From Stentor roeselii (lineage: Eukaryota > Ciliophora > Heterotrichea > Heterotrichida > Stentoridae), in the NCBI GenBank assembly GCA_006503475.1, contig RSEH01000290.1:1-56180 (forward strand): 56,180 nucleotides of DNA. The letters are read 5' to 3'. The notes under the pieces are model-generated. The model was not told the DNA's origin and did no database searches. It saw nothing but the letters and a program-made list of their open reading frames with translations. Made by a program: the position numbers and the translations under genes. Positions 51,761 to 53,886 of this stretch are shown here, piece after piece. Position 1 is the stretch's first letter. Each line of letters starts with the position of its first letter.

Positions 51761-52320
51761 CTAATATCCCCAGTCTTTGAAGATGCATTCTGGGTACTTG
51801 TCCTTCCATTGTCTTGCATACTGCCCATTATTATAGTCCCAATCATAATTGCCATGTATCTCGAGTTTCTTTGTACTCATATTCAAAATGAACACTACTA
51901 TGTAATGCTACAGTCTCTGTTACTCATACCTAGCTAGAAAGTACAACCTTCTGATTAGTTCTACATTCAAAATTACTTGTACCTTCGTAGTGATTACTAC
52001 CTGCTGATTATCTCTACGATCTTGATTACTCATACCTCACTATAATGTACCTTCTGCTTAGTTCTACTCTCTTTTTTACTAGTACCTGGGTTAGTATTAC
52101 TGTTTTCTGCTTAGCTCTACTTTCTTTTTACTCTTACCTGGGGTTAGTATTACTGGCTTCTATATTCGTTACAGCCTGCTGGTTATTTGATACCTACTAG
52201 TTAGTAACTACTAACTTGAATAATTGATACCTCAATGTATGATACGTTCTGTTGTCCAAATACCTGACTGTTTAGCACCTCTCTTGTTATTACCCACTTC
52301 GTTTAAAATACCATCTCTGA
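51761..52320 (-). other. Probable intron-rich 3' continuation of the B-box gene: tandem coding-like array
   Basis: Downstream of the TGA at 52321 the minus strand holds open segments that read like related beta-rich units. Examples are VILTQVLVKKRVELSRR (inside 52030-52116) and VVITTKVQVILNVELIRR (inside 51924-52013), then a terminal segment 51761-51907 ending in DKYPECIFKDWGY and TAG. They are separated by 15/16-nt GT...AG elements such as 52014-52029 (GTAATCAAGATCGTAG) and 51908-51923 (GTAACAGAGACTGTAG). The DNA has a ~53/106-nt tandem period. Composition is clearly less AT-rich than the flanks. The exact joins do not all keep frame in my reading, so this is either a spliced 3' end or a decaying one. 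Confidence 0.5.
52297..52311 (-). other. Candidate 15-nt intron beyond the stop of the B-box gene
   Basis: On the minus strand it reads GTATTTTAAACGAAG. Together with 52317-52331 it removes the next in-frame stop and opens a further 31 codons (52204-52296, WVITREVLNSQVFGQQNVSY...). It would leave a 5-nt exon between the two introns, which is unusual. Confidence 0.4.
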
Positions 52321-52331
52321 TCATCTTTTAC
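52317..52331 (-). other. Candidate 15-nt intron spanning the stop codon of the B-box gene
   Basis: On the minus strand it reads GTAAAAGATGATCAG and contains the TGA that otherwise ends the frame at 52321. An overlapping alternative is the 16-nt GTAAGTGATAATTCAG just before it, which would give a different ending (VKDDQRWYFKRSG then TAA). Which is used cannot be decided from sequence alone. Confidence 0.45.
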
Positions 52332-53886
52332 CTGAATTATCACTTACAATCTGCTGAACCATACCTAAATAATCTTCACAATAAAAAACATATAGACCAT
52401 CGTTTGACATTTTTATTTCCTTACAGTAAGATCTTGTCAAGTTTAATTCAGTCCATGCCTTGAACTGATTAAATTTTTCATCTAGGGTCATAGCTTCAAA
52501 CTCTGAACAAAAAGTACCTAAATTTTTTCTTTCTGCTTGCAATTTTTTAATCCTTTCTTCCTCTTCTTTTTGCTTTCTTTCATTTTCATCTTTTTGCTTT
52601 CTTTCATTTTCATCTTTTTGCTTTCTTTCATTTTCTTCCTTTATCCTTAGATCTTCTTCCTCCTGTTTCCGCCTAATTTCCTCCTCATTTTCTCTTTGAA
52701 TTCTAAGATCTTCATCCTTTTTGAACTGTTTATAACCTTCAATCTCTCTCCTAACATTACTCTTAAATTCTTGATCAAATCGATTAATCTGTCCCTGATA
52801 CTCCTGAGTAAGTCCTTGAACCTGATCTCTAATCCTATCACAAAACAAGTTAAAACTTTCATTCAATCCATCAATCCTCGCTCCACACAAAACCCTTAAT
52901 TCCTCTCCTCTCTTAAAAGCATTTTCCCCAATACTTTTCGCAGTAGTTTCCACAACCTGATTGATTTCAACGATTCTCTGATCAACAATAACAGAAATCT
53001 GATTAAACTGAAAATCAATTAAATTTTGAGTATTTTCAATGAAATCCTTCATTTTTCTATCCTGAGCTCGATTTGATTCCTGCTGAGCCACAAGTCCATG
53101 AGCAGTGCTGTTATACTTGCTATTGACTTCTTCAATTGCATTATTCTGAATCTCAGTCATCTGTTCAAGAACCAAGACCCTATCCTGCAAAAGGTCAGTC
53201 CTGTCATTCAAGCAAAACCTTTTCTCTCGTTCCTGAGTCTCCAAGTCTTGCACCCTAAGAACATTTAGAAAGTTCTGCTCAATTTGAACCGTCGAGTTTT
53301 CCACCTTGGCAAGTCGCGTGTGAATCTCTTCTCGACTTTCCCTGTCCTGCTGAGACTGGCTTCTGACCTCTTCCAACAAATCGTTGCTTTTCTTCAAGTG
53401 GCCCATGATGTTCTTGATGTCTTCACTGAAAAGAGAGAAGTCGACTGAGGCACTGTCGTTTGAGAAGTGGTCGTCAATGAGTTTCTTGAAGTCTTCTGAA
53501 CTTTTGAACTTTAGCTTCAGGTCGCCCAGGTCTTTGAAGGACTCTTGGGGAAGGGAGTCGGCTTGGGAAAGGTTTGAAGACATCTCGATCAGCTTGTCTT
53601 GACGCTCGGTCAGGTCGGATGTGATTTCGCAGAGCTTTTTGCAGATCTCTTCGAACATCTCTTTGCCTGTTAGCATCACTTTGCTCATTGTTGATGAAAG
53701 ATTCTTCATTTCTTTTGCGAGAAGAGATGGAGTGTTTTCGAGAGTTAGAAGAGCCCGGATTGAGTGAACTCCTGGAATTCCAAGGTGCTTTTCGAGGTGG
53801 AACTCGCAGTATTTTAGATTGCGGTCGCAGGAACAGCTGTTTTTTGGACTGCCTGGGCAGTCACCGTAAGAACATCTTTCATCCAT
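52321..53886 (-). CDS. B-box-like zinc-binding coiled-coil protein (3' end uncertain)
   Basis: 521 aa as an unspliced frame. Residues 1-45 carry a B-box-like Cys/His set (RCSYGDCPGSPKNSCSCDRN, YCEFHLEKHLGIPGVH). ~55-440 is almost all coiled coil, with a tandem ERKQKDEN repeat at ~425-450. The C-terminal ~60 residues (YCKEIKMSNDGLYVFYCEDY) begin a beta-rich domain that looks cut off at the TGA. Short-intron candidates there suggest the gene continues to 51761. Start context is CTAATAAATGG. Codon endings flip near 53330. Confidence 0.7.
   Translation of the reverse strand: MDERCSYGDCPGSPKNSCSCDRNLKYCEFHLEKHLGIPGVHSIRALLTLENTPSLLAKEMKNLSSTMSKVMLTGKEMFEEICKKLCEITSDLTERQDKLIEMSSNLSQADSLPQESFKDLGDLKLKFKSSEDFKKLIDDHFSNDSASVDFSLFSEDIKNIMGHLKKSNDLLEEVRSQSQQDRESREEIHTRLAKVENSTVQIEQNFLNVLRVQDLETQEREKRFCLNDRTDLLQDRVLVLEQMTEIQNNAIEEVNSKYNSTAHGLVAQQESNRAQDRKMKDFIENTQNLIDFQFNQISVIVDQRIVEINQVVETTAKSIGENAFKRGEELRVLCGARIDGLNESFNLFCDRIRDQVQGLTQEYQGQINRFDQEFKSNVRREIEGYKQFKKDEDLRIQRENEEEIRRKQEEEDLRIKEENERKQKDENERKQKDENERKQKEEEERIKKLQAERKNLGTFCSEFEAMTLDEKFNQFKAWTELNLTRSYCKEIKMSNDGLYVFYCEDYLGMVQQIVSDNSGKR

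Follow-up and report, generated by a model that had tools for sequence, protein, structure and literature searches.

The window analysed here is a stretch of 56,180 nucleotides of Stentor roeselii DNA (GenBank assembly GCA_006503475.1, contig RSEH01000290.1, here C219), which is a whole contig in a genome of 44.4 Mb and 522 contigs. Its minus strand carries a plain open frame of 521 codons that ends in TGA at 52321, with an array of tiny intron-like elements on its 3' side. The preliminary description took 52321 for the end of the gene; in the best model, the apparent stop codon at 52323-52321 would fall inside the fourth of 27 predicted introns and the gene would extend to 51761. Once these introns are removed, the predicted protein has 572 residues (1507 + 75 + 137 exon nucleotides). 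Other repeats in the window are a 24-nt coding repeat inside the long exon (52565-52642, about KQKDENER, 3.2 copies, 96% match) and a 279-nt tandem duplication at 601-1131 (83% match). The features of the gene are given in Table 1.

Table 1. Features of the re-modelled gene, with introns as predicted by the frame-aware parse (A10 and A11, A at position 10 or 11 of the intron)
Feature	Positions	Strand	Length (nt)	Remarks
Whole gene, re-modelled	51761..53886	-		ATG at 53886, stop TAG 51763-51761
Long first exon	52380..53886	-	1507	Cys/His-rich N-terminus, long charged stretch, SNDGLYVFY; phase 1 end (..TAT T)
Intron array	51898..52379	-	482	407 nt in 27 predicted introns, 75 nt in micro-exons
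Intron 1	52365..52379	-	15	GTG, A10
Intron 2	52351..52364	-	14	directly follows intron 1; weak, expected A missing
Intron 3	52332..52347	-	16	A11
Intron 4	52315..52331	-	17	weak; contains apparent stop 52323-52321
Intron 5	52297..52311	-	15	A10
Intron 6	52279..52293	-	15	A10; 15-nt gap here in close paralog
Intron 7	52264..52278	-	15	GTG, A10
Intron 8	52249..52263	-	15	weak, A at 11
Intron 9	52231..52245	-	15	A10
Intron 10	52215..52230	-	16	weak, A at 10 not 11
Intron 11	52197..52211	-	15	TACTAAC, A10
Intron 12	52179..52193	-	15	A10
Intron 13	52157..52172	-	16	weak, no A at 11
Intron 14	52138..52153	-	16	TACTAAC; A at 10 not 11
Intron 15	52124..52137	-	14	
Intron 16	52107..52120	-	14	
Intron 17	52086..52100	-	15	TACTAAC, A10
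Intron 18	52071..52085	-	15	A10, back to back with intron 17
Intron 19	52054..52067	-	14	17 nt if next NAG used
Intron 20	52036..52050	-	15	A10
Intron 21	52021..52035	-	15	A10, back to back with intron 20
Intron 22	52004..52017	-	14	or 17 nt
Intron 23	51983..51997	-	15	A10
18-nt exon	51965..51982	-	18	aligns to 15-nt intron plus codon of close paralog; AG lost, open in frame
Intron 24	51948..51964	-	17	or 14 nt + AAG
Intron 25	51930..51944	-	15	A10
Intron 26	51915..51929	-	15	A10, back to back with intron 25
Intron 27	51898..51911	-	14	or 17 nt
Last exon	51761..51897	-	137	..VFILNMSTKKLEIHGNYDWDYNNGQYARQWKDKYPECIFKDWGY, stop TAG; exon type at 83 genomic places (E<=10)

Fifteen of the predicted introns are 15 nt long, four are 16 nt, six are 14 nt and two are 17 nt, and the exon pieces between them measure 0, 3, 6 or 18 nt. 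Thirteen of the 27 introns are fully canonical. The choice between 14 and 17 nt is uncertain, and the frame is preserved either way; a 15-nt form of intron 4 ending at 52317 would leave two extra nucleotides. The piece at 51965-51982 looks like an intron of the close paralog that is becoming coding sequence after loss of its AG. None of 20 composition shuffles of the array yields any open parse when the frame is taken into account. A parse that ignores the frame fails to open the gene and leaves four gaps that are not multiples of three; the window model depends on the frame-aware parse.

Much of what the preliminary description had noticed at the array is borne out. It had pointed to dense GT..AG elements of 15 or 16 nt, and the minus strand of 51896-52380 (485 nt) does hold 15 GTA..A..AG elements of these lengths, against a mean of 0.8 and a maximum of five in 2000 shuffles; there are none on the plus strand of the array, 21 in the other 55.7 kb of the minus strand and 18 on the whole plus strand. 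The tandem period that it reported is recovered by TRF as a 53-nt unit at 52052-52155 (2.0 copies, 88% match) and a 103-nt unit at 51946-52139 (1.9 copies, 75%). The period of about 53 nt arises because the units at 52153-52101 and 52050-51998 each consist of three tiny introns and 9 exon nucleotides, or three codons, while the intervening unit of 50 nt (52100-52051) has three introns and two codons (6 exon nucleotides). Single-base indels are absorbed by intron length, as had been proposed: 52153-52124 parses as 16 + 14 nt and the corresponding part of the next unit, 52100-52071, as 15 + 15 nt. The extent given at first, 51761..52331, needs correction at one edge, since an array is present there but begins in the model at 52379, 48 nt ahead of that edge. 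The 'beta-strand-like' peptides that had been taken for coding units are mostly intron sequence read through.

The last exon, which ends at 51761 in the IFKDWGY-TAG recognized earlier as a plausible C-terminus, belongs to a large family. A protein search of the genome with this exon finds 83 places at E<=10 and 63 at E<0.001, the window counted in, and a DNA search with the tail gives a closest relative in the same genome that is 74% identical across the full 571 nt. The tails of 66 of the 83 places were analysed. As far as these have been read, GT..AG elements of about 15 nt run between ..SNDGKYxF and ..VWNLETK, mostly 3 or 0 nt apart, and dozens of related genes in the genome appear to share the layout of a tiny-intron array. 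Family places tend to lie near contig ends: 43 of the 64 scored are within 10 kb of an end (25 expected), and on contigs over 80 kb the figure is 20 of 38 (5 expected). Duplication is visible in one gene (L044), where four identical ATGATT exons alternate with three copies of the same 15-nt intron. With about 50 introns across 1.1 kb, another gene (L047, on G000:C30) has the largest parse in the family; three of its introns are identical (GTAAAATTTATAGAG), with TTG before each. The identical adjoining units in both genes would fit recent growth of the arrays. One copy of the last exon (L085) has an in-frame stop and is a probable pseudogene of the family.

An upstream exon from which the frame-aware parse can start is present in 56 genes and missing in ten of the 66 tails. 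The parse opens 47 of these 56 anchored genes through the array, compared with 22 of 1120 composition shuffles, while nine cannot be parsed. Unspliced, none of the 56 is open, and the median number of in-frame stops is ten. The 47 parsed genes hold a predicted 730 introns (424 of 15 nt, 166 of 16, 119 of 14 and 21 of 17), or 5-50 per gene, so that 590 are 15 or 16 nt long; this total is an estimate, because at least nine genes have a doubtful intron in or beside the last exon (L010, L046, L049, L053, L055, L063, L074, L079 and L084). The exon pieces number 683, with 161 of 0 nt, 374 of 3 nt and 77 of 6 nt, and 640 of them are multiples of three; the other 43 are probably due to missed introns or decay. 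When the frame is ignored and introns of 14 and 17 nt are also permitted, 62 tails have a run of introns; in 14 of these the parse reopens at least 40 codons upstream of the array (223-417 codons in L046, L051, L057, L061, L068 and L079), and in the other 48, the window gene included, it fails.

The frame rule also emerges where no frame is assumed. A scan of the last 1100 nt of the 66 tails for chained GTA..A(10 or 11)..AG elements, 15 or 16 nt only, finds 470 elements compared with about 83 in shuffled tails. Among the gaps of up to 12 nt between them, 172 of 174 are multiples of three (63 of 0 nt, 94 of 3, 10 of 6 and 5 of 9), and 99 of 101 when redundant intron pairs are removed, while each shuffled set yields about 1.5 pairs, spread evenly across the three phases. 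The rule still holds for 31 of 32 gaps after 16-nt introns, although the length of the DNA unit there is not divisible by three. This argues that the frame would be preserved only after splicing. Moving the required A off position 10 or 11 lowers the yield from 470 to 201-344 elements. Since the gaps of these shifted sets are still multiples of three (32/32, 42/43, 116/118 and 53/55), the rule alone cannot place the branch A.

Across the whole genome, the pattern 15-3-15 (intron, gap, intron) has 280 matches and its reversed-pattern control 14, and 15-4-15 has 1 and 8. For 16-nt introns, 16-3-16 has 53 matches (control 18) and 16-2-16 has 6 (control 59), an excess that counts against ordinary codon periodicity, which would favour the 18-nt unit. 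Among 100 of the 280 15-3-15 matches listed, 32 lie in regular arrays on contigs C8, C127 and C227. These regular arrays, mostly of 33-nt period, are found at C227:817-1370, C127:30-227 and 229938-230135, and C8:151494-151592, those of C127 sitting at both ends of the contig; either plain coding repeats or additional intron arrays could account for them.

In 58 paralog-pair alignments, which are not mutually independent and cover 243 introns of 15 nt, mismatch scored in the copy without the motif requirement is 0-2% at positions 1-3, 10, 14 and 15 and 10-26% at all others. The GTA donor, the AG acceptor and the A at position 10 are nearly invariant. The gap rule, the genome-wide patterns and this conservation all favour the earlier suggestion that tiny introns were multiplied by repeat growth. 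In 66 aligned 3-nt exons there are 12, 16 and 23 mismatches by position (18, 24 and 35%), with no wobble pattern for phase-1 codons and no reduction below the free intron positions. Since these exons are no less variable than free intron positions, most loop codons are without visible purifying selection. The first micro-exon, unlike most loop codons, appears to be constrained: the split codon at the first junction, formed by T and this micro-exon, is Tyr in 43 of the 47 genes.

Fifteen chosen spliced peptides align as one domain, in which invariant Phe, Tyr, Trp, Cys and Trp surround a loop of variable length; the predicted loop region is YYYVELIAGSKKNKKDPGSTSNFECYLVFILN in the window gene and YYYVEHIAGFAGNTDLGNQGYLVYILN in the close paralog. 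No accepted Pfam family is found for six spliced peptides. A sub-threshold match of one of the six to a nitrate-reductase N-terminus (E 0.00088) is taken as chance. A test of the domain for WD40 gives one sub-threshold Pfam PD40 match (E 0.1) among the six, and a PDB profile search has weak matches to a homeobox (E 0.086), RACK (0.14) and WDR5 entries (about 0.2-0.8), so that the identification as WD-like is weak. The gene had been called a B-box gene at first. Its N-terminus is indeed Cys/His-rich, yet the Pfam B-box profile matches neither the 521-aa frame nor three N-termini at E<=10; one of the three N-termini has sub-threshold Pfam matches to Mob1 and a WRKY19 zinc finger (E 0.028).

In the window and the family loci analysed, GTA..AG elements joining open frames have no excess at 15 nt (14 at 14 nt, 12 at 15 nt and 11 at 24 nt). 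Among 14 candidates of 15 or 16 nt, four are likely single introns outside arrays, all of 15 nt with A10; three are in family genes (L056, L078 and L084) and one is on the other strand (L080). Another candidate, L067, also joins long frames but was set aside, as it has no A at 10. In the genome at large, 102 of 122 scored kinesin domains (167 candidates) have no internal stop, and the in-frame stops of the remaining 20 are always TAA or TAG and never TGA, which is consistent with 15-nt introns read through. Since kinesin domains are mostly uninterrupted, the genome is intron-poor and the intron density of the arrays is exceptional. Besides the frame ending at 52321, four window genes of at least 180 codons have TGA stops, and reading past these adds 0, 2, 19 and 21 codons. 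The standard genetic code and the tiny introns both fit Stentor.

Schistosome micro-exon genes (MEGs) appear to be the nearest known architecture. In these, tandem short exons of 6-36 nt, multiples of three in length and lying between ordinary introns, build a variable protein. The tandem exons predicted here are likewise multiples of three (172 of 174 gaps, 640 of 683 pieces), but they are mostly 0, 3 or 6 nt long and their introns are of about 15 nt. The zero-length exons of recursive splicing and the stwintrons of fungi, as described, share with the arrays an AG directly followed by GT (63 of the 174 gaps are 0 nt), an arrangement that would require adjacent introns to be removed stepwise; these systems subdivide one long intron or nest two, while here tens of minimal introns alternate with triplets.

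Splicing can include exons no longer than one codon, as the 3-bp micro-exon of Drosophila homothorax (PMC7392893) and the single-nucleotide exon of Arabidopsis (PMC4674806) demonstrate; as far as the abstracts say, these occur singly, whereas here they form arrays. The introns of Stentor coeruleus, like those of the arrays, are GT..AG introns of 15 or 16 nt with the branch A at 10 or 11 (PMC9505925), and the 14- and 17-nt lengths predicted in the window are absent from section 2.1 of that intron description. According to the same source, most intron-bearing genes of S. coeruleus have a single intron, introns lie preferentially towards the 5' end and any gene with more than eight is called uncertain, unlike the parsed genes here, in which 5-50 introns are packed at the 3' end, most of them separated by one or two codons of exon or by no exon at all. 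Blepharisma is another heterotrich ciliate with tiny introns (15/16 bp) and a compact somatic genome, but it is given as reading UGA as Trp (PMC9942806), unlike the window, where four genes end in TGA. In the titles and abstract openings of the open-access literature searched, a set that does not extend to the 2017 Stentor genome paper, no description of such arrays was found.

With high probability, the region forms the 3' end of the coding part of a multi-copy gene, with introns of about 15 nt that are spliced singly, codons that join as a variable loop and arrays that have grown by tandem duplication. The introns would be spliceosomal (GTA..A at 10 or 11..AG), either directly adjoining or mostly one or two codons apart. 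Each would be removed individually, and the leftover codons would join in frame to form the loop between two stretches that are conserved in the C-terminal domain (..SNDGKYxFxY - loop - LxVWNLETK..). Splicing seemingly needs the intron alone, with its fixed length of about 15 nt, GTA, branch A near the end and AG, which would allow neighbours to be separated by three bases or by none. Adjoining introns, including those back to back, would presumably be removed one after another. The sequence itself shows the anatomy of the arrays, the frame rule, the conserved splice signals and joined Tyr codon, and the repeated units, and splicing is inferred from it. Units of intron plus codon would duplicate in tandem, each duplication adding one or a few residues without a frame shift, while 15/16-nt length changes stay confined to introns. 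Since the frame would stay intact each time codons are added in this way, the arrays can grow.

The regular arrays on C8, C127 and C227 can be read as codons, and an 18-nt unit (15 + 3) is a multiple of three, both of which would suit a plain coding repeat, unspliced, in which GTA and AG merely fall within codons and translation continues through every unit. This is hardly credible for the family, given that none of the 56 anchored genes is open unspliced, with a median of ten in-frame stops, and that genome-wide 19-nt units (16-3-16) and 18-nt units (16-2-16) stand at 53 to 6. The plain ORF call, which stops at 52321, agrees with a gene that ends there and an array that is 3' untranslated sequence, and an array that leaves as one long intron would also preserve the frame. 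Neither offers a reason for multiple-of-three gaps in 172 of 174 cases or for the Tyr codon joined at the first junction in 43 of 47 genes, and with the downstream exon type at 63 places (E<0.001) both are very improbable. The decaying tail that had been raised early on, a pseudogene end with leftover splice sites, is just as improbable. It could account for the window intron without AG (51965-51982), the stop in the last exon of L085, the nine of 56 genes that do not parse and the 3-nt exons without visible constraint, but paralogs hardly differ at the splice positions although adjacent positions drift, and the spliced frame is open in 47 of the 56 genes. Ciliates also excise short DNA segments (PMC9942806), and the units might be removed in this IES-like way from DNA in nuclear development rather than from RNA. 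This we hold to be extremely improbable, since GTA, branch A and AG are signals of the spliceosome and follow the rule published for Stentor introns, and there is also a U1 snRNA gene.

Individual splicing of tiny introns could also be combined with deliberate isoforms, in which competing sites (14/17 nt, 15/16 nt, NAG-NAG) let one gene make many loops. Overlapping GT and AG options, NAG-NAG acceptors included, are dense in the window array and the 14/17-nt choice preserves the frame; such regulated choice is nonetheless unlikely, though well short of negligible. A strict 15/16-nt length limit would forbid exon skipping. A further possibility, more open but still rather doubtful, is that the spliceosome builds the loop codon by codon, with fixed 15/16-nt introns and essentially no exon needed, and that duplication acts as a frame-safe engine for diversifying a binding loop in a large family near contig ends. 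Such a family with a variable loop fits variation that is useful as well as variation that is merely tolerated, and any benefit of it would be a matter of inference from sequence.

If the genes are spliced as modelled, they contain tens of introns in a few hundred bases, with either three exon nucleotides or none between neighbours. A plain ORF call truncates the window gene at 52321, and its relatives would suffer likewise. Intron recognition would then be possible with essentially no exon, fixed by the length of the intron, and the arrays would be a natural system in which to study how one spliceosome completes its work before another can assemble. They would also be an unusually direct record of the multiplication of introns through tandem duplication.
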